In this document: positions 479 to 35,788 of the stretch, in pieces
How positions within the stretch are numbered: position 1 is the first letter of the stretch
How the letters are laid out: each line of letters begins with the position of its first letter
Source of the DNA: a virus
IMG/VR virus record: IMGVR_UViG_3300041411_000402
Location: 1 to 37,998 of that record
Length of the DNA stretch: 37,998 nucleotides
Strand: one strand, 5' to 3'
The notes under the pieces: generated by a model
The model's database searches: none
Told to the model about the DNA's origin: nothing
What the model saw: only the letters and a program-made list of their open reading frames with translations
Made by a program: the position numbers and the translations under genes

Positions 479-577
479 GCAAGGCGACATCGCCTTCATA
501 AATGCCAACTTTTAGCGCACGGCTCCTTGAGAGCCATTTCCCTGGACCGAATATAGGAATCGTATTCGGTCTTTTTT
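479..577 (+). ncRNA. sdsR: SdsR (RyeB) small regulatory RNA
   Basis: The sequence from GCAAGGCG at 479 to the T-run at 572-578 matches the E. coli/Salmonella SdsR RNA as I remember it. It includes the conserved unpaired segment AATGCCAACTTTTAGCGCAC (502-521), the CGGCTCC...GAGCC hairpin, the TTTCCCTGGACCG segment, and a terminator stem GACCGAATA/TATTCGGTC. It lies next to yebY as in E. coli. SdsR is an Hfq-dependent, RpoS-controlled sRNA that represses several mRNAs by base pairing. The 3' arm of its terminator and the T-run coincide with attL, so the prophage uses this gene as attB and regenerates its 3' end. Confidence 0.92.
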
Positions 578-578
578 T
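562..578 (+). other. attL core in the sdsR terminator
   Basis: GTATTCGGTCTTTTTTT is identical to 34108-34124. It forms the 3' arm of the SdsR terminator hairpin and its T-run. The integrase gene lies just inside, as expected for a P2-family element. The crossover point within the repeat cannot be resolved from sequence. Confidence 0.88.
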
Positions 579-24968: not shown

Positions 24969-26552
24969 CTAACCCTTGAAGAAGTTAATAGTTATCACTC
25001 CTTCACTACTATAACTATCAACGATTGAATCAATAGAGTCTTTTATCTGCTGTGTGATATTTTCTCCAGAAGGGCAGTCAATTAACTCTTCAATAGATAC
25101 ATTAGGTTTTCCAATTGCATGCCAACCATCAAGTAAATTGGCCTGCCCCTTGACAGATATAATCATATAGATTGTAAGGTTGCCCAGTTTTGAAGATAAA
25201 ACCATTATGCAAACCACTTCGCCTTCAATTTTTTTGGCGGATTCTTCTTGATCTATATGGAATCTCATAATGTCATAAGGCTGTTTATTTGAACTAAGCA
25301 AGGGCTCGATAGATTGAAGCGACTCTTGGCTATTTCTTAGTTCATCAAAAGACATTTGCACTTGTGATTCAATATTTAAATTCCCAGCTAGTTCTGAGGC
25401 AATGACAATTAATTTCTCAAGTGACTCTAAATGTTTAATGTACTTTGATTCTGAACTCTCCTCAATGACCTTGTCGCTAATCATAACAAGAGATTTTTTG
25501 AATTTTTCGGAAAAAATCTTTATTTCCATCTGGCTTTCTTGTGAGGTGATCCATTTTCTAAAAATTATTGCGTCTCTCAGCTCAAAAAGACTAAGTCTCA
25601 CACCGTCGTCAATGAACTTATAATGTGAATTGCCAGTTAACGCAACTAACATATCGAAACTCTTAGTTTTAACTCTGAACTTAGCCATCTGCTTAGGAGC
25701 CACGGCTGAAACCTGTGAGAAAAACAACTCGCATTCAAATCTTAAGCGTTTTTTACTTTTAAGGTGTGTGAAAGTTATGTTTCCTTTATCAGTGCTTTGT
25801 TTAACATCAAAGGAAATAAATGCCTCAGGTGAACGAAGGTCTGCGTCTTCTGATAAGATTTCAAAGCGAGTATCATAAGTCATGACATCGGTAACTTTAA
25901 TTTTATCAATCCATCCCAGAGATGCACTAACAACATCATTTTCAGGGCTAAGAGTGCTAGCTTTAAATTTCATTTGCCCCCAGCTTTTCTCGTAGCCTAA
26001 CGTTTTTAATTGATGTTGTTTTTCTTTAACATATTCATTCATTCCTTTTGGGATGTGGCTATCAATGGCTTTAATAAAAACATCGCCTGTCAGATGACTT
26101 AATTTATTTGATTCATCATATTTTATTGTCAAGGTTTTCTTATTAAAATTCTTTCTGGCCTTGTTCAAGCTATTTTCTCTTGCACTTTTAAGGACATCAA
26201 ATATGATGTCCTTGCTAATATGAACAAGGAAAACATCATCTGGTTCTGATTTGTTGTTATACTCTAAGAATAATATAAAGCTTGGTAATGGTGTGTTACA
26301 CAGTCGCATAAGATTTGACAGTGTTATTGCAAGTTTTCTTTTTCTATGATCTGTAGCTTTGATTTGTATTTTGAACTCTTTTGATGCGGGCGCTTTATCA
26401 GCTAAAACTACTTCGTCATATTCGTGTGGGTACTCCACAATATAATCCCACCCTGTACTATCCTCAATGCTTCCATTGCATGTTAAACCCATCGTAGCAC
26501 ATAAATTATTGAAAAATGTTTCTCCCATTCGACCCAAGTTTCTTTTAATCAC
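24969..26552 (-). CDS. DUF4365-like PD-(D/E)XK nuclease-domain protein (cargo)
   Basis: 527 aa, AT-rich. The N-terminal about 150 residues look like a DUF4365/PD-(D/E)XK nuclease fold: E11 in GRMGE, D36 in TGWDY, and Q63-x-K65 in FKIQIKAT, with a following basic helix. The remaining about 370 residues are unrecognised; they are beta-rich in the middle and helical near 370-430. The start is a GTG at 26552 with GAGGG 5 bases upstream; a possible -10 TATACT lies at 26569-26574. The gene sits between cos and Q, convergent with Q, at the extreme left of the virion map. An abortive or restriction-type antiphage role is inferred from the nuclease domain and position. Confidence 0.85.
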   Translation of the reverse strand: MIKRNLGRMGETFFNNLCATMGLTCNGSIEDSTGWDYIVEYPHEYDEVVLADKAPASKEFKIQIKATDHRKRKLAITLSNLMRLCNTPLPSFILFLEYNNKSEPDDVFLVHISKDIIFDVLKSARENSLNKARKNFNKKTLTIKYDESNKLSHLTGDVFIKAIDSHIPKGMNEYVKEKQHQLKTLGYEKSWGQMKFKASTLSPENDVVSASLGWIDKIKVTDVMTYDTRFEILSEDADLRSPEAFISFDVKQSTDKGNITFTHLKSKKRLRFECELFFSQVSAVAPKQMAKFRVKTKSFDMLVALTGNSHYKFIDDGVRLSLFELRDAIIFRKWITSQESQMEIKIFSEKFKKSLVMISDKVIEESSESKYIKHLESLEKLIVIASELAGNLNIESQVQMSFDELRNSQESLQSIEPLLSSNKQPYDIMRFHIDQEESAKKIEGEVVCIMVLSSKLGNLTIYMIISVKGQANLLDGWHAIGKPNVSIEELIDCPSGENITQQIKDSIDSIVDSYSSEGVITINFFKG

Positions 26553-27212: not shown

Positions 27213-29441
27213 TTAATCAGGCACAGGTATGCCGCTTTTTTTCGCAAGAGCATTAAATCTTTTTAAGGGAGTAGGATTCTTGTTCCGTCTATGGAACAGA
27301 TAGCCGCTTGTACCGCTCCAGTAAGAAAGCTCCCCAACCTTGATTGTATAGCCTTTCATCATGCGCACAGCTTCGCCGTCGGACAGTGTTAACCTGAAGA
27401 TCTCGAAGAAACTCTTTTTCAACGCCTCCCGTTCTTTGCAATGACTAACTTCAGGTGGGTATTTGTCCGGCTCAGGTTGCTCCTGCGCTGGCTTTTCTCT
27501 TAATCGCTTAATAATCCTTCTTCGCTCGGCGCGAGTAGGGGGCTTTGTGAAATCGATAGCTGCTTCAGAGCCTGTTGGCTCCGTACAGTTATTGACAGAA
27601 CTCCGAGAGGACGCGGGCGCGTCCTTAATTTCAAAACCCAAATCAACGGCACGTTTCGGGACAATCTTCCATTGCATCATACGGGTTAAAATTGACGTAT
27701 CGTCGCCAACTTCAGTTGCGTAAACACCCTTGATACGCACGGTTTCCTCTCCGTACTCATTCATGTCTTCGCTTGCCTGATACCAGGTGCGCACAGCCAG
27801 CTCGTCGCGGCGCACAAATGGGCCACCCTGCGCGTTAACGTATCCGGCCCAGTCTCCTGCGTCGGCGGCGTCATGCACGGCCGCAAACTCAACGCTCAGG
27901 CCGTGCGCGGTTTCGCTGTCTGCCATGCGGCGCAGTTCGCGGTAAACCGTGACCGGCGCACCGCCCACAAACTGAAATTGCCGGATGTGCCAGCGTGCCG
28001 CCCAGGCAGAAACGGCCGAGGCGATTTCTTTCAGATCTTTGCCGCTCTCGTCGTCTGTCTCGCCATCCAGCGCATAACCATCAATATTTTTGGAAATGTA
28101 TTTAGCAACGTAACCCGTCGCGCTACCTTTTGCCGGGTCGATTGCCTCGGCATGAAAACGGGCCTTACGGGCCTTGTCGGTTATCAGCTCGCTGCCGTCT
28201 TCCTGCCAGGCGTAGTCGCGCATAATCTCGCGCACGCGTTCAGCCTGCTCCGGGCACATAAACATGAGCATGTGCCAGTGCGGGGTTGCATCGTGATGAG
28301 GTTCGGCAACGCGGATCCCGAAGATGCGGATTTCTTCGCGGTGCAGCTTGGCGCGGATTTTCTGCCAGACGCTGCAGAGATAACGCTGCGTGTCGGCCGG
28401 GCTGGCACCGTTCCATTTGCGGTTGCGATGCCCGGTTTTGATTGTGGCGTGATAGCGCGCCGGGGCAGTCAGCGTATAGAACTCGCCGATAAAGCCCATT
28501 TCATTGCAGATGTTTTCGAAGCCACGAATGCGGGTCATCAGTTCGCAGCGACGTATCGCCGGGTTGGCCACACTGCCGTCGTACTTCTCGATCAGGCTGA
28601 TGCGGTTGCCTTCTTCGTCTTCCAGCTCCATTCCCTTTAAAAATTCACGAGTACGGCGCTTCTGCTCACGCCACTCAGAAACAGTCATGCTGCTGGCATA
28701 GGGGGTATGCTTTTTGCTGACGTTTGCCAGTGCGATTTGGAGATGTTCACGCCATGATGCGGCAACGCGACGCAGCCTGCCTTTCCACCACTTTTCCGTC
28801 TGCATACGCAGTATTGCCGGAGTAACTTCCTCCGGGTCAAAAAAGCGCGACGTGATCTTTTCCCATAGTGGAGGTGTCTGGCTCAGCTCGCGGGTGATGG
28901 TGGCGGCGGTCATGTAAACACGGTGCGTGTATTTGTAATCTGACTCGTCGCTGGCCTGCGCGTGTGCCTGTACCAGCTCGGCGAGAATGAAATTAGCCAC
29001 ATCCCCAGCAAGCAAATCGACGTCAGCGCGAGCCATATCTGGCAGGCGGTTAAAGCGGCGCATCAGATTGAAAAGCTGACCACCTGCTACCGCCGCATTG
29101 TCGCGCTGGGTTGCGTTACCGCCGAGTAAACTTAATGTGCTCCCCTTCATCACGCCGAGACGATATTGAGCATTAACGGTTTCAACGCGTGGCAATGTGC
29201 GCTCAACGAAAGTTTTCGCTAAGTACGCATTGGCACGATCAATACCCTGCGTTTTTTCCAGTTCACTAACCCGACGCCTTACATCAATCTGAATCAGCGC
29301 TGGCTGCTTTTCGAGTAGTTCCTGCGCATGCACTAAAGCCGCAATCATCTGACTGCGGCAGTGCATTTCCTCATTGGTGGCATAAGGGCTGGCGATAGCT
29401 TCCCGTGGAGTATTCCACGGGTAAGCAAATTCCTCATGCAT
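27213..29441 (-). CDS. A: Replication initiator gpA (HUH endonuclease)
   Basis: 742 aa (P2 gpA 761 aa). Rolling-circle initiator: FYTLTAPARYH (about 321-331), the metal-binding H388-W-H390 in HHDATPHWHM, and tandem tyrosines Y444 and Y448 in GYVAKYISKNIDGY, corresponding to the two catalytic tyrosines of P2 A. It nicks its own origin, which in P2 lies within the A gene, to start modified rolling-circle replication. The C-terminal 120 residues are basic and variable. The ATG overlaps the stop of the upstream zinc-finger gene (TGATG). Confidence 0.95.
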   Translation of the reverse strand: MHEEFAYPWNTPREAIASPYATNEEMHCRSQMIAALVHAQELLEKQPALIQIDVRRRVSELEKTQGIDRANAYLAKTFVERTLPRVETVNAQYRLGVMKGSTLSLLGGNATQRDNAAVAGGQLFNLMRRFNRLPDMARADVDLLAGDVANFILAELVQAHAQASDESDYKYTHRVYMTAATITRELSQTPPLWEKITSRFFDPEEVTPAILRMQTEKWWKGRLRRVAASWREHLQIALANVSKKHTPYASSMTVSEWREQKRRTREFLKGMELEDEEGNRISLIEKYDGSVANPAIRRCELMTRIRGFENICNEMGFIGEFYTLTAPARYHATIKTGHRNRKWNGASPADTQRYLCSVWQKIRAKLHREEIRIFGIRVAEPHHDATPHWHMLMFMCPEQAERVREIMRDYAWQEDGSELITDKARKARFHAEAIDPAKGSATGYVAKYISKNIDGYALDGETDDESGKDLKEIASAVSAWAARWHIRQFQFVGGAPVTVYRELRRMADSETAHGLSVEFAAVHDAADAGDWAGYVNAQGGPFVRRDELAVRTWYQASEDMNEYGEETVRIKGVYATEVGDDTSILTRMMQWKIVPKRAVDLGFEIKDAPASSRSSVNNCTEPTGSEAAIDFTKPPTRAERRRIIKRLREKPAQEQPEPDKYPPEVSHCKEREALKKSFFEIFRLTLSDGEAVRMMKGYTIKVGELSYWSGTSGYLFHRRNKNPTPLKRFNALAKKSGIPVPD

Positions 29442-30465: not shown

Positions 30466-30975
30466 TCAACTCATAACAAATGATGCACCGATGCCGCTGA
30501 TAGCATCGACCGTTGAGGACAAGGCCGGGTTAGCCTGAATACGCGCCTGTACTGCCATTGCGGCTAGCGCTAAGCAACGAATACCGCTATTAACATTTTG
30601 CAGCAGGCCGCGTTTACAGTTGGCAGTCATAGGTTCTGTAGAGCTTGCCCCAGCTGCTAACTGGCCTACTTCTGCGGTGGCTTTCATGACATACAGGGGG
30701 AATTTTTCATCTGCGACTTCGTTTACCGGCACACAGGGGAGACACTGGATTTGCGCCAGCAAGCCATCAACTAACGTTGCATCCTCAGTGACATCGGTAA
30801 GAGCTAAAACCTCTAAGACGGTAAGCTGATGCGGCTGGTCTGGATTCAGCTTATTACGCAGAGTTTGCGCACGCATTCCGGACTGCTTCGCTACGTCTTC
30901 CATGTTGTGAGCTAACGCGAATTTGCGACATGCATCGTCGTAATGCGTATGGGTAGAAACCTTGAAATCAAACAT
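30466..30975 (-). CDS. cII: CII-type early regulator (186 CII family)
   Basis: 169 aa from the ATG at 30975, the same length as 186 CII. Begins MFDFKVSTHTHYDDACRKFA; a helix-turn-helix is at about residues 25-50 (AKQSGMRAQTLRNKLNP). The start has AGAGGGAT 7 bases upstream; the longer frame (to 31089) would overlap the preceding gene. In 186, CII activates the establishment promoter pE for cI. Together with CI and the Cox/Apl-like protein it marks a 186-type switch. Confidence 0.9.
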   Translation of the reverse strand: MFDFKVSTHTHYDDACRKFALAHNMEDVAKQSGMRAQTLRNKLNPDQPHQLTVLEVLALTDVTEDATLVDGLLAQIQCLPCVPVNEVADEKFPLYVMKATAEVGQLAAGASSTEPMTANCKRGLLQNVNSGIRCLALAAMAVQARIQANPALSSTVDAISGIGASFVMS

Positions 30976-30990
30976 GCTCAGATCCCTCTT

Positions 30991-31008
30991 AACTTGCAAA
31001 ATCAAGTT
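30991..31008. repeat. Inverted repeat upstream of cII
   Basis: AACTTG-N6-CAAGTT, perfect 6-bp arms, just upstream of the cII ribosome site and touching the stop codon of the preceding gene. It could be a binding site (for CII at a pE-like promoter, or another regulator) or an RNA hairpin. Unassigned. Confidence 0.45.
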
Positions 31009-31408
31009 ATGGCTTGATGTAGCGGCATTTGATTGCCTGCTGGCGGTTCTTTTCACGCCACGCAGCAACATTGATAAGCGGATTGCCATGTTTGGTCATG
31101 GTGGTTTCTACCACTTCGCCTGTCTTACGATTGGTACGGTTCTGCGTATAGGTGAAAGATGGGGTAGGGGCGAGCAGCACAACCCCATTAGCAATCCATT
31201 TCTCCAGCACTGACAGGCTAATGCGGTTGGCTGCAGCAAAGTCCTGTTTGGACATTGTTGGAGATGTGGCTAGCGTGACGGCTTTGTTTACGGCGTCGTT
31301 TACCGCTTCGCTGATGGCTGGCATCAAAATCGCTGCGACATTGGCAATAAAATCTTGAGATTGCACTAAGTTAAATGGGCTCTGACTGTTTGCATTTTCA
31401 GTATGCAT
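31007..31408 (-). CDS. Cox/Apl-like early regulator (probable excisionase/repressor)
   Basis: 133 aa. The central segment MSKQDFAAANRISLSVLEKWIANGVVLLAP reads as a short winged-helix/helix-turn-helix of the Cox/Apl/AlpA kind, followed by a Cox-like tail NPLINVAAWREKNRQQA. The N-terminal 45 residues are helical and not seen in P2 Cox (91 aa). It is the first gene of the early operon, divergent from cI, with AGGAGATA upstream. The position argues for control of the lytic switch and excision; family assignment is tentative. Confidence 0.65.
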   Translation of the reverse strand: MHTENANSQSPFNLVQSQDFIANVAAILMPAISEAVNDAVNKAVTLATSPTMSKQDFAAANRISLSVLEKWIANGVVLLAPTPSFTYTQNRTNRKTGEVVETTMTKHGNPLINVAAWREKNRQQAIKCRYIKP

Positions 31409-31465
31409 AACGCAATATCTCCTCGTGGTCGTTTTGTTCTATCGTGTTTCATGTGGTGTGAGAGC

Positions 31466-31496
31466 ACTTTAGATCGTAAAAACGATTTGGTAAATG
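31466..31496. promoter_or_regulatory. Overlapping divergent early/cI promoters around a palindrome
   Basis: Minus strand: TTTACC (31489-31494), 17 bases, TAAAGT (31466-31471), driving the early operon. Plus strand: TTTAGA (31468-31473), 17 bases, TAAATG (31491-31496), driving cI. The shared spacer holds the palindrome ATCGT-AAAA-ACGAT (31473-31486), the best candidate operator for CI or the Cox/Apl-like protein. The layout is deduced, not tested. Confidence 0.55.
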
Positions 31497-31522
31497 ATTA
31501 TTTATCACTTATTGGTGTTTTT

Positions 31523-32380
31523 ATGATTGAAGAGAAGGGCGGTAGCGCTCAGATTCTCGAAAGACTCATGTCTTCTTATGGAGTTAACACTCAGAAAGAT
31601 CTAGCTGCGGCTCTTGCTATACCTGCCAATAATATAAGTGGTTGGACGCAGCGTGGAAGCGTGCCGGGTAATGCTATTATCAAGTGTGCATTAGATACTG
31701 GAGCAGAGCTTCAGTGGCTGGTAACAGGTAAACTTGCAAATGCGAAATCAGCATCGTTCAATTCAAAGTATTCTGGCAGGTTACTTTATGAAGAAATAAT
31801 GGCTAATGGTGGTAAACCCGTTTTACGACGCATTTTAGACGCTTATGGTTTTACCATGCAGAAGCAGCTTTGCGACTTGCTCGACATTTCTTCAGGCACA
31901 GTTAGTACATGGATTAGAAGAAATCACTTCCCGGGTGATGTTGTTGTAACTTGTTCATTGGATACGGGTGTTTCTCTGCAATGGCTTGCAACAGGTAAAA
32001 GTGATGTAAGGCTCTCGGAGACTACAAACCATGATATGACAACGTTTCATCAATTAAAAAAGTTGAGAATTGAATCTGGTAAGCTAGTATCAGATGGCTA
32101 TTTTATAATAGATCCTTCTTTTACATCATCTCCTATTGAGGAAACTGCATTGGTTGTCAGGGGAGTGAATGCTTGGCTCGTGGATTTTTCCAATAAAAAT
32201 TTTTCAAACGGGAAGTGGATGATTGAAATTGATGGTAGTGTAGATATTTATAATGTAAAAAAGCTACCCAAAAAAAAGTTGCTCTTAGAAAATAGCGGTT
32301 ATGAATTTGACTGTGATATGGAGCTTGTAGCTCCTTTAGGAATAGTAACTAAAACAATTTTCAATCATGAAATTAGCTGA
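31523..32380 (+). CDS. cI: 186-type CI repressor with duplicated helix-turn-helix domain
   Basis: 285 aa, against about 190 for 186 CI. Residues about 9-70 and 99-160 are two copies of the phage CI-repressor HTH domain. Each contains a QK-L---L-I pattern, then ISGW/VSTW, R-S/N-x-VPG/FPG, CALDTG/CSLDTG and LQWL-TGK. The C-terminal 110 residues (FHQLKKLRIESGKLVSDGYF to GIVTKTIFNH) resemble the 186 CI oligomerisation domain. I use the ATG at 31523; the frame is open further upstream, but through the promoter region. No strong ribosome site is visible. No LexA-like Ala-Gly cleavage site or Ser/Lys dyad was recognised, so SOS relief would need an antirepressor. Confidence 0.88.
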   Translation: MIEEKGGSAQILERLMSSYGVNTQKDLAAALAIPANNISGWTQRGSVPGNAIIKCALDTGAELQWLVTGKLANAKSASFNSKYSGRLLYEEIMANGGKPVLRRILDAYGFTMQKQLCDLLDISSGTVSTWIRRNHFPGDVVVTCSLDTGVSLQWLATGKSDVRLSETTNHDMTTFHQLKKLRIESGKLVSDGYFIIDPSFTSSPIEETALVVRGVNAWLVDFSNKNFSNGKWMIEIDGSVDIYNVKKLPKKKLLLENSGYEFDCDMELVAPLGIVTKTIFNHEIS

Positions 32381-32403
32381 ATCTAAAAATCACGGATATG
32401 ATT

Positions 32404-32967
32404 ATGAATGATCAGATTGAATCTTTCCGAAATTATTTAAGAGACAACAGTGTTCAAGACACATTTAGACGCTTCATTATGCATCAAGACTGTAAGGTAA
32501 TTACTGAAGATCAAAGTTATGGCTTGAAAAATATTGTGTGCGAAAATTTCAGTGTAGGATTTGAACATGTTGTGATAGTAGGTTCATGTAAACTTGGGTT
32601 TAGCATTAAACCTGATAAAAGATTTGTACCTTTTGGTGATGAGTCAGATATAGATGTCGCTATTGTCTCCTCGGGATTATTTGAGTCTGTTTGGAAAGCT
32701 GCGATGGATTATAAATACTCATGCGCAGATTGGCCAATGAAAAGACAATTTTTCAAATATTTATCAGAAGGTTGGATAAGACCAGATAAGTTTCCCAATG
32801 ATGACGCATTTCCTTTTGGTAAGGAATGGTGGTTATTTTTTAATAAAATCACAAGTTCTGGGAGCTATGGCGATTATAAAATTGCAGCTGGTATATATTA
32901 TAATAGCTATTTCTTAGAAAAATATCAGACAACTTGTCTTGAACAATGCGCTTTGGAGTTAAAATAA
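32404..32967 (+). CDS. MNT-like nucleotidyltransferase (cargo, lysogeny operon)
   Basis: 187 aa from ATG 32404 (GGA 7 bases upstream; ATG 32398 is also possible). Nucleotidyltransferase signature: VIVG60-S61, then D82-x-D84 in GDESDIDVAIV, the GS...DxD pattern of MNT/polymerase-beta-type enzymes. The spacer between GS and DxD is long (about 20 residues, with GFSIKPDKRFVPFG). The rest is aromatic-rich and unrecognised. It lies 23 bases after cI on the same strand and shares bases with the start of the DUF262 gene, so it should be transcribed with the repressor. The substrate is unknown: it may AMPylate a protein partner, as MNT antitoxins do, or act on a nucleotide. Confidence 0.85.
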   Translation: MNDQIESFRNYLRDNSVQDTFRRFIMHQDCKVITEDQSYGLKNIVCENFSVGFEHVVIVGSCKLGFSIKPDKRFVPFGDESDIDVAIVSSGLFESVWKAAMDYKYSCADWPMKRQFFKYLSEGWIRPDKFPNDDAFPFGKEWWLFFNKITSSGSYGDYKIAAGIYYNSYFLEKYQTTCLEQCALELK

Positions 32968-33974
32968 TGGACACGTCAGCTTCTAACAGAAGGTTAAGGG
33001 TTTTATTAACAGCCATTGGTAATGGAAGTTTAGTTCCTCAACCAGAGTTTCAAAGAAGATTGGTTTGGATTAATAAAGATAAAGTTGAATTTATAAGAAC
33101 AGTTGTTGAAGGGTATCCTTTTCCTGAAATATATATAGCAGCTGGAAAATTAGACCCTAAAACAGGTATAGGAACAGAAGTTTTAGTCGATGGCCAGCAA
33201 AGAATAACAACTTTATATCAATATTTTAAAGATAATGCTGATCTGAAGCTGCCTGATGACTTGCCTAAATATTCCGATCTCAAAGAAGATAAGCAAATTG
33301 CTTTTCTGGAATATAGTGTGGTAGTTAGAGATCTTGGTGCGATGGAATTGAGTGTTATTAAAGATGTGTTTCAAAGAATCAACTCCACAAGTTATGGCCT
33401 AAATGCTATGGAGATTGATAATGCTAGATATGGTGGTGAATTTAAAAAGTTTGGGGAGAAAATTTCTACAAAAGATTTCTTTAATAGAAATAAAATTTTC
33501 ACCGCCACCGATATAAAAAGAATGAATGATGTACGTTATTGCTTAGGATTGGTTATCACAATGATGACAACCTACTTTAATCGTGATAAAGAGATTGAAC
33601 AATTTCTTGAAAAATATAACGAAGCTTTTTTAGACTCTGATAAAATTGAAAGTGAATTTGATACCGTACTGAAATTTATAGATTTACTAAATTTCAACCC
33701 GTCAAGTAGATCAATGAAAAAGGCAGACTTTTATACATTATTTATTGAGATGCATCGCTTATTGATAAAAAATAAAAAGGATTTATCGCCTGTCGATGTT
33801 AGGAAAAAACTGGATGATTTTTATGAGCAAGTAGACTTTGTGGCAGAGGGAAATTATAAAGGTAGTGATGATAGAGCAAACGTTTATTACAAAGCAGCTT
33901 TACAAGCAAGCAATGATAGGGCCAACAGGATATTAAGGGGTAAAATAATTTCTTCACTCTTTGAATCAACCTGA
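32967..33974 (+). CDS. DUF262 (ParB/Srx-like) protein (cargo, lysogeny operon)
   Basis: 335 aa. The start shares one base with the stop of the nucleotidyltransferase gene (TAATG), with GGAG 8 bases upstream. N-terminal DUF262 motifs: PEFQRRLVW (26-34), GYPFPEIYI (49-57) and the catalytic-type D75-GQQR-79 followed by ITTLYQYF; FQRINSTSYGLNAMEI is also typical. This is the NTPase/nuclease-like domain seen in GmrS/GmrSD, SspE and BrxU. The usual C-terminal DUF1524 HNH nuclease is absent; the last 150 residues are helical and unrecognised. The tight coupling suggests a two-protein system made in the lysogen. Confidence 0.88.
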   Translation: MDTSASNRRLRVLLTAIGNGSLVPQPEFQRRLVWINKDKVEFIRTVVEGYPFPEIYIAAGKLDPKTGIGTEVLVDGQQRITTLYQYFKDNADLKLPDDLPKYSDLKEDKQIAFLEYSVVVRDLGAMELSVIKDVFQRINSTSYGLNAMEIDNARYGGEFKKFGEKISTKDFFNRNKIFTATDIKRMNDVRYCLGLVITMMTTYFNRDKEIEQFLEKYNEAFLDSDKIESEFDTVLKFIDLLNFNPSSRSMKKADFYTLFIEMHRLLIKNKKDLSPVDVRKKLDDFYEQVDFVAEGNYKGSDDRANVYYKAALQASNDRANRILRGKIISSLFEST

Positions 33975-34010
33975 AACTGATTTCACTCATTCTATCTCAT
34001 TGGAAACCAT

Positions 34011-34048
34011 AATGAGGTTTGAATATTTCTGAATGCTCAAACCTTATT
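34011..34048 (+). terminator. Hairpin after the cI operon
   Basis: AATGAGGTTTGA (34011-34022) pairs with TCAAACCTTATT (34037-34048), 11 of 12 Watson-Crick plus one G:U. It is the first strong hairpin after the DUF262 stop and before attR. It lacks a T-run, so termination is likely but inefficient or factor-aided. Confidence 0.5.
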
Positions 34049-34107
34049 GTGTCGCCATTTAAACGCCATAGATGCTCATAACTTCATGATTTATATATAT
34101 AATTATA

Positions 34108-34124
34108 GTATTCGGTCTTTTTTT
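34108..34124 (+). other. attR core
   Basis: Identical 17 bp to attL (562-578), with one extra T at 34125. Only the terminator 3' arm is copied here; the rest of sdsR is at the left end. Sequence on either side differs from attL. Confidence 0.88.
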
Positions 34125-34221
34125 TGTTCTATGATTTATAAAGATTTTTCTGTGACTTTTACGAAATATCCCGAAATCACACTATTCAATCTATGCCATC
34201 ACATATTCCTGATCGCTTGAA

Positions 34222-34428
34222 TCACGATTGTTTTTTCTTCATAGAAAAGTTTTTTATGGTCGAATGGCCTTTACAAAAAACTTCTTCGCTTCTCACATCA
34301 AATAGTCGAATTTCAGCGCGTCTCATCTCATGAAAATTCAGCAGGTCTGGCCCAATCTTAATACCTCTCATTTCGCGCGCTTCGACTAATACTCTCATTA
34401 ATGCATCTGGGGCGTTACGTTGGATCAA
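34222..34428 (-). pseudogene. Probable remnant of a lambdoid integrase
   Basis: A 68-codon frame containing LVEAREMRGIKIGPDLLNFHEMR, close to the ARDKAGI...PTFHEIRSL block (catalytic His-x-x-Arg) of lambda-type integrases. The frame degenerates after RLFD, and the downstream LGH and Tyr motifs are absent. It is not preceded by the rest of an integrase. It lies only about 100 bp outside attR, suggesting an older element in the same insertion site. The identification rests on one motif. Confidence 0.42.
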
Positions 34429-34655
34429 GTCTTCATGACAAACATGCCGTTATTGATTTCGATAATGCAGACACAGTGACGTTAATCATTCATCCGATGT
34501 CCACTGAGTGAAGGTATGCTAGGGGACACAGCTCGTGCCGAGGGATTCACGTATTTATAGTTCTCTGACGGACGGATAGGCAAATTTCGGAGAGTGATCG
34601 TTTTATCTTAGTGTGGCACTATAATGCAGCCATTATCATGAACGAGGGATTGAGA

Positions 34656-35330
34656 ATGATATCAGGAACAGCAGCAAAACAGGAACCTGGACGTTACTAC
34701 ACATTTGAGTCGAGATTGCCTCAGGGCGTTTTTTTTGAGATTCGCCCCAGCCATTTGCCAGGAAATGCAAAGCCCGTAACAGATGAAACCAGCGGTATGT
34801 GTATCGGTTACTCGGTCGCACAGGCTCCGGGTTTGTGGCAGATTTATGACGTTCAGGGGCATTTTGTCAGGCTGGAAGAAGCGCCACTTGAAACACCCCT
34901 GATTGATCCCACGGATATTGCCCTGTTTGGCCTAGGTATTTTTCGTATCCTTCGTACAGGGCGGGTGCTGTTTGAATCAGGGGCACGTGCCGCTGTTTAT
35001 GCGAAGCTCAGTCAATCCACTATATCCTTTCTGCGCAGCAGACTGAAACTAGGGCTGCATGCACGTAACCTTAAAATGACTGAGGCTGCTGCAAAACACA
35101 TGTATGAACCGGGTCGCTATGTCCCTCTGCAAATTCAGGAGCGAGCCATTCGATATGGCAAGAGAATGGCAGATCCCCGTAAAGGTGATGGCATGTTCAG
35201 ATATGAAACCAGAATGTTCAAGCTACGCTTTAATAAGCAAACACTGCAGTATGAGTACAAAGAATACACCCTCGAAGTTGTGGTGCGTGAATCAGACTGG
35301 ACGATATCGCATTTCAAATATATGGATTAA
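34656..35330 (+). CDS. Orphan polymorphic-toxin-like protein
   Basis: 224 aa from ATG 34656 (GAGGGA 6 bases upstream). Residues about 80-135 (LIDPTDIALFGLGIFRILRTGR to RSRLKLG) resemble the linker that precedes toxin domains in polymorphic toxins. Residues 140-224 look like a small nuclease domain: H148, GRYVP (153-157), AIRYGKRMADP, YTLEVVVRESDWTISHF with T216/H219. A RNase of the BECR type is my best guess. No secretion signal, PAAR, Rhs repeats or two-partner domain is present, so delivery is unknown (possibly a type VI cargo). A matching immunity gene follows 17 bases later. Confidence 0.7.
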   Translation: MISGTAAKQEPGRYYTFESRLPQGVFFEIRPSHLPGNAKPVTDETSGMCIGYSVAQAPGLWQIYDVQGHFVRLEEAPLETPLIDPTDIALFGLGIFRILRTGRVLFESGARAAVYAKLSQSTISFLRSRLKLGLHARNLKMTEAAAKHMYEPGRYVPLQIQERAIRYGKRMADPRKGDGMFRYETRMFKLRFNKQTLQYEYKEYTLEVVVRESDWTISHFKYMD

Positions 35331-35347
35331 CTGAAAGGAAGGCTTTT

Positions 35348-35788
35348 ATGTTTGATTTTCGCAATGAGGATTTCACCTTCGTGATTTCTCCTTTTGAAAG
35401 GATACCCGACAATGAAGCAGATCCTGCTGGGCACTTATGGGATTGGATCCAGTCATGGATAGAATTCTCCGTAAGCGGCGTGAAAGTACAGTTTCAGACT
35501 GAATTTACTGTAGGTGAGCTAAGAATTTTAAAGGGTGAGTTTGCCGCGAATTATCAGGCAATAATCGCACAGCGCGAATTAAAACCTTTCATTTTTCGCA
35601 GCGAGCGTGGTCAGCTCAACATGGTTATCAGGAAAGTGACTGGTAAAGATGGTGTAATAGTAGAGTTTGATATTCGCCCGGAATCCCATGCCGACAGCGT
35701 TCAGGTTAAAGGCAGCTTTGGCCTTGATGAAAGCTATTTCCCCGATATTCTGAAGAGGCTGGATGAAATGATTCAATGGCCTAATTAA
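35348..35788 (+). CDS. WapI-type immunity protein
   Basis: 146 aa. The start MFDFRNEDFTFVISPFERIP and the alternating beta-strand pattern (VKVQFQTEFTVGELRILKGEF, ending in FPDILKRLDEMI) resemble the WapI family of immunity proteins that neutralise contact-dependent toxins. A strong AAGGAAGG ribosome site and the 17-base distance from the toxin gene support a toxin-immunity pair. Cytoplasmic, no signal peptide. Confidence 0.7.
   Translation: MFDFRNEDFTFVISPFERIPDNEADPAGHLWDWIQSWIEFSVSGVKVQFQTEFTVGELRILKGEFAANYQAIIAQRELKPFIFRSERGQLNMVIRKVTGKDGVIVEFDIRPESHADSVQVKGSFGLDESYFPDILKRLDEMIQWPN

Follow-up and report, generated by a model that had tools for sequence, protein, structure and literature searches.

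A conserved nucleotidyltransferase–DUF262 gene pair carried by a P2-like prophage is a candidate two-component anti-phage module

PD-T4-2, which pairs DUF262 with HEPN, and Menshen, in which DUF262 accompanies a predicted OLD nuclease, are listed among defense systems that lack DUF1524; the NTPase activity of DUF262 is reported to switch on the nuclease of SspE (PMC10952713). In MNT–HEPN, the first gene is thought to encode the antitoxin (PMC3710099). Two further reports describe MenT-family nucleotidyltransferases (NTases) as toxins acting on tRNA acceptor ends (PMC10435456, PMC11541572). Here we describe a locus in which an NTase gene is coupled to a DUF262 gene, the usual RNA- or DNA-cutting partner of DUF262 apparently being replaced by a nucleotidyltransferase. 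An earlier note, written from this DNA sequence, did not recognize the arrangement as a named system. We likewise found no description of it in PADLOC 2.0.0 or in a literature search from which preprints and most subscription journals were out of reach; it may have been described elsewhere.

The window, a 37,998-nucleotide stretch of a virus record (IMG/VR IMGVR_UViG_3300041411_000402), holds a P2-like (Peduoviridae) prophage, which has integrated at the gene for the SdsR sRNA (Table 1). The prophage is bounded by a 17-bp direct repeat, GTATTCGGTCTTTTTTT, which is the 3′ end of the host SdsR/RyeB gene. Integration at this position preserves the terminator sequence. As the second copy begins at 34108, the stop codon of the DUF262 gene lies 134 nt from attR, in line with the earlier note, which placed the pair just before this site. 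The integrase gene is across attP from the cI region (31403–34124) and oriented opposite to cI, unlike in PSP3 and RCIP0057, where the integrase gene follows cI. The int–attP part of this prophage seems to have been rearranged. In the relatives PSP3, vB_EcoM-613R3, and RCIP0057, the slot of the NTase–DUF262 pair holds a small gene (DUF2511 in PSP3) and the integrase gene, and the pair is thus cargo. A 527-aa ORF (24969–26552, minus strand, 35% GC), with weak matches to DUF4365 and PDC-M02A, is a second AT-rich cargo gene. It is located between the portal gene and gpA, the region in which P2 has lysogenic-conversion genes. The flanking chromosome (34611–35788) contains a 239-aa ORF followed by a WapI-like immunity gene (PF24716), possibly a contact-toxin immunity remnant.

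Table 1. Positions of the prophage ends, the cI region and the NTase–DUF262 pair in the window.
Feature	Coordinates	Strand	Evidence or remark
attL core, 3′ end of SdsR/RyeB gene (482–578)	562–578	.	Direct repeat; RF00111, 98.2 bits
Prophage integrase	648–1787	−	PF00589, PF24624; far end, away from cI
gpA	27213–29441	−	
CII-like gene	30466–31089	−	
cI repressor, 285 aa	31523–32380	+	PF07022 twice, PF16452; 53% identity to PSP3 CI
NTase, 189 aa; second possible start 32404	32398–32967	+	Family-level PF01909/PF18765/GlnE; invariant GSxKxGxS and DxD; AF2 pLDDT 96.9
NTase active-site region, G62-S63-x-K65 to D84-x-D86	32581–32655	+	Invariant in 79 members
DUF262/GmrSD_N protein, 335 aa, translationally coupled to NTase	32967–33974	+	PF03235 E=1.5e-19; PADLOC NsnA 2.5e-30, PD-T4-2_A 5.7e-16; Foldseek BrxU 1.3e-4
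DGQQR nucleotide-pocket motif, residues 75–79	33189–33203	+	D75, G76, Q78, R79 invariant (78 members); Q77 in 93%
attR core	34108–34124	.	17-bp repeat of 562–578

The cI, NTase, and DUF262 genes are on one strand, with both cargo genes between cI and attR. This layout, as read in the earlier note, was borne out, including the TAATG overlap: the TAA of the NTase gene occupies 32965–32967, and the DUF262 gene starts inside TAATG. The 23-base gap after cI, also reported there, holds with the second ATG of the NTase gene (32404); from the first (32398) it is 17 nt. The two cargo genes are AT-rich as described: GC content is 33.3% in the NTase gene and 32.6% in the DUF262 gene, compared with 51% for the phage and 39% for cI. 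CI carries its helix-turn-helix domain in two copies. From 31200 to 34600, no terminator-like site was found, and promoter-like sites were not above chance. cI is presumed to be the first gene of the lysogenic transcript, and the pair is probably transcribed with it in lysogeny, given its position and the lack of a terminator in this region. Fusion to cI as part of the system, which the note had proposed, was not supported. No gene was coupled upstream of the NTase gene in 66 of the 82 checkable loci, and an intrinsic tie to cI was rejected. The cI linkage is peculiar to this phage and cI is outside the conserved module; "lysogeny-expressed" therefore describes only the insertion site of this phage.

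Pairing outside this phage, a check that the earlier note had suggested, was found widely. Genomes (one per species) were scanned with an NTase profile. Among the best 80 of 122 relatives, a DUF262 gene was immediately downstream of the NTase gene in 77 loci. This count comprises 74 loci that passed a strict adjacent-downstream test, L039 and L097, which failed it only through use of an upstream start codon, and L118, in which insertions split the NTase gene and DUF262 is present. Of the three loci without the pair, one is decayed (L071), one is deleted (L111), and the third sits at the end of its contig (L116). A profile scan of viral contigs gave 12 with the NTase, all 12 with DUF262 immediately downstream. 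Separate NTase and DUF262 scans of the viral contigs led to the same contig or to contigs with both genes. A chance neighborhood in one phage was rejected on the counts of 77 of 80 loci and 12 of 12 contigs. In two close viral relatives, the pair was beside or near an integrase gene, with no cI gene coupled to it. Only two plasmid matches were found for the NTase, both with the pair and with NTase identity of ~30% or lower. No homolog of the pair was found in complete E. coli genomes, and no NTase homolog in the phage collection.

The gene order was always NTase then DUF262, and the spacing was mostly −23 to +12 nt, most commonly −4 nt. The pair was found on prophages, plasmids, and chromosomes, and its hosts, by record titles, include Pseudomonadota, Bacteroidota, cyanobacteria, Actinomycetota, Bacillota, Planctomycetota, and Nitrospirota. 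Its GC content was below that of the flanks in all 87 loci measured, by 12 points on average. In 369 sampled gammaproteobacterial genomes, the NTase occurred in two (one being the center genome), both times adjoining DUF262, and a DUF262 match occurred in 32. These numbers indicated that the NTase goes with DUF262 and not the reverse.

Both motifs named in the earlier note, GS...DxD of the NTase and DGQQR of the DUF262 protein, are present. The window NTase reads GSCKLGFS...SDIDVAIVS, and G62, S63, K65, S69, D84, D86, and Y176 are invariant in 79 family members. The residues that the note called D82/D84 were numbered from the second ATG. The window protein had no match in Pfam, NCBIfam, or PADLOC models and matched one PHROG of unknown function. 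Within the family, 30 of the 79 members matched PF01909 (best 3.5e-4), 11 matched PF18765, and three matched GlnE. The AF2 model had no significant PDB match; weak top ranks included CutA, TUT4, and CdnD, the last with an E value of about 5. A third catalytic acid was not obvious. The family-level matches together with the invariant motif residues point to a divergent pol-beta NTase with a conserved active site. Judged by sequence, the protein is a pol-beta superfamily member outside any named family. Its identification as a CD-NTase, AbiEii, or HEPN protein was rejected, since a match to those families was absent in all 79 members.

The predicted structure of the DUF262 protein has a BrxU/SspE-like fold (ParB/Srx) with a helical C-terminal part, and BrxU was its best Foldseek match. 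The best PADLOC match was NsnA, above PD-T4-2_A. As the earlier note had remarked, the usual DUF1524 is absent; Pfam found no other nuclease domain either. The protein has a single histidine in its whole sequence, and it is not conserved in the family. A hidden nuclease was rejected on these grounds.

Elsewhere, genes for short DUF262 proteins are coupled to a gene downstream whose product has a HEPN, AAA_15/DUF3696, or RelA_SpoT domain. HEPN pairs were found in P2_4B2, ST16-OXA48phi5.4, and several others. The RelA_SpoT partner was found in one gammaproteobacterial genome (E=5.7e-10). A Rhizobium sp. 007 plasmid carries DUF262 and a homolog of this partner as overlapping genes with a DNA methylase next door, and in pTiK1_93 the homolog is near DUF262 with an IS element between them. 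These DUF262–RelA/SpoT loci from the gammaproteobacterial genome and the Rhizobium plasmids (L125:2112–4138, L173:1911–3972, and L174:1261–4645), one interrupted by IS5, adjoin methylase or restriction genes. To our knowledge, the DUF262–RelA/SpoT pair has no published name. In two further loci (L007:3004–4715 and L126:1312–3038), DUF262 is coupled to partners of ~210–220 aa without a Pfam match, possibly further effector types.

On the DUF262 tree, the NTase-partnered rows formed one or two neighboring groups (2 changes versus 19.8 in shuffles), apart from the HEPN- and OLD-partnered rows (SH-aLRT 100). In this sample, their nearest relatives were the RelA-partnered row and the two rows with the ~210–220-aa partners, some of these being on long branches. 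Core DUF262 residues, including the C-terminal R324, were common to all partner groups. E54, Y116, R121, and R321 mark the NTase clade, with Y116 and R321 also present in the nearest relatives. As DUF262 is coupled to HEPN, OLD-like, RelA_SpoT, and NTase partners, it is the part that stays the same, and the partner is what varies. It is most simply read as a shared switch, with the NTase as one of several interchangeable effectors.

We put at roughly 0.52 the probability that the NTase and the DUF262 protein form one two-component anti-phage module, probably acting by abortive infection and carried as prophage cargo, with DUF262 as sensor and the NTase as effector. The DUF262 protein would be the common sensor or switch. 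Its DGQQR pocket would bind and hydrolyze NTP upon encountering foreign or modified phage DNA, and the protein would then release or activate the partner NTase. By nucleotide transfer to something essential in the host, with the tRNA acceptor end as the likeliest target and a protein as another, the NTase would halt the growth of the infected cell, which would protect against the phage. The choice of tRNA is a first guess by analogy with the MenT toxins alone, which act on tRNA acceptor ends. More tentatively, at a little below even odds, DUF262 switches on a dedicated NTase killer, evolution having joined one NTP-gated DNA sensor to four or more effector chemistries (HEPN RNase, OLD-type ATPase/nuclease, RelA/SpoT transferase, and NTase).

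The direction of control could also be the opposite, with the upstream NTase as an antitoxin that AMPylates a DUF262 toxin, as MNT does the HEPN toxin in type VII toxin–antitoxin systems. The NTase gene always comes first, as in MNT–HEPN, and this order counts against the NTase as effector; moreover, PF01909 and GlnE, among the nearest Pfam families, include protein adenylyltransferases. However, neither a toxin nor a nuclease domain is present in the DUF262 protein, its R324 is common to HEPN- and OLD-partnered DUF262 proteins, and the other DUF262 pairs each include an obvious effector. Loci with a damaged gene give some guidance. Two transposase-type insertions split the NTase gene in L118, and a frameshift in a run of T disrupts it in L109; DUF262 is intact in both. 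The reverse was seen in L088, where DUF262 has a nonsense codon and the NTase is intact. Either gene alone is thus tolerated, as would be expected of a sensor with a dormant effector; a free toxin would fit less well. The L109 frameshift is in a nine-T run (L109:6418–6427), for which phase variation or a sequencing error is possible. Effector swapping and the RelA/SpoT example favor the NTase as effector, and we lean toward that role on comparative grounds and regard an AMPylating antitoxin as less likely.

A further alternative is a minimal analog of CBASS, in which infection would prompt the NTase to make a small nucleotide signal that the DUF262 pocket receives. An operon that couples an NTase gene to a downstream gene for a nucleotide-binding protein would suit it, as would CdnD among the weak structural matches. 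But the CdnD match is not significant, the NTase has only ~190 aa, no member matches the CD-NTase family, and DUF262 proteins of this type also work with partners that produce no signal. We consider a signaling system of this kind improbable.

A defense role for the pair, which the earlier note had proposed, is likely, because PD-T4-2 and Menshen contain homologous DUF262 proteins and because defense families are rich among the neighbors. Proteins beside the pair (134 and 135) matched 245 and 224 PADLOC families, respectively, whereas 134 control proteins from distant places in 31–32 of the same genomes matched 33; the neighbor count is rough and inflated, as one methyltransferase matches many models. 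Mobile-element maintenance, superinfection exclusion, or prophage regulation in place of general anti-phage defense has a small chance, for the pair is found on prophages and plasmids and in this phage behind cI, but the defense-gene enrichment over the same-genome control, the close kinship with tested defense modules, and the lack of a repressor link at most loci stand against it.

A C5-methyltransferase gene was present in nine of the 88 pair loci and in none of the 32 control stretches. It was coupled upstream of the NTase gene in four (L019:2282–6889, L020:2703–5594, L113:3781–8126, and L117:363–4732). Such neighbors, confined to a minority of the loci, fit a sensor that reads how DNA is modified. 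The methyltransferases of L113 and L117 carry an Arm DNA-binding domain of the integrase type, and the DUF262 proteins of L019, L113, and L117 are extended to ~500 aa. L019 also has an HNH protein that weakly matches SRA, and an MvaI/BcnI enzyme is encoded in L115.

The best reading is an uncharacterized, probably abortive, defense module, its function being inferred by comparison. If this is true, it is a widespread unnamed anti-phage module, spread over many phyla, with an undescribed NTase branch; it would have been missed because the NTase matches no curated family. Several separately named systems would then follow one scheme, in which a common DUF262 switch is combined with exchangeable effectors. 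What DUF262 senses would be directly testable, since nature swapped the effector and kept the sensor.

Among the known systems, PD-T4-2 shares with this locus a short DUF262 protein without DUF1524 (PD-T4-2_A, E=5.7e-16) in a translationally coupled two-gene operon, and P2-like phages carry it too. Its partner is a HEPN protein (PF18735), whereas here it is an NTase without a HEPN match; the NTase gene precedes DUF262, and the DUF262 proteins belong to a separate clade. In the other pairs, the DUF262 gene comes first. Menshen provides the best PADLOC match, its DUF262 protein NsnA, but an NTase gene takes the place of the OLD/AAA_15-DUF3696 ATPase gene, and the pair has no ATPase gene adjoining it. 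GmrSD, BrxU, and SspE have the same GmrSD_N domain (PF03235) with DGQQR, and BrxU is the closest in fold; the protein described here differs in lacking the DUF1524/HNH (His-Me finger) nuclease.

On the NTase side, type VII MNT–HEPN and MenT/AbiEii are likewise two-gene operons that encode a small pol-beta NTase with GS...DxD. The partner in MNT–HEPN is a HEPN RNase and here is DUF262 (77 of the best 80 of 122 relatives). MNT has 10 residues between GS and DxD, compared with 20 here. MenAT and AbiE differ in that none of the 79 NTase members matches AbiEii and the partner is DUF262, not AbiEi or MenA. CBASS differs in its CD-NTase, a family the NTase does not match. The link to the pol-beta superfamily is the invariant GS...DxD motif, the fold search itself not being significant. 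The DUF262–RelA/SpoT pairs (L125, L173, and L174) are, together with the two rows whose ~210–220-aa partners lack a Pfam match, the nearest non-NTase relatives on the DUF262 tree in this sample. Their RelA_SpoT-domain partner is encoded downstream of DUF262 and is likewise a nucleotide transferase.
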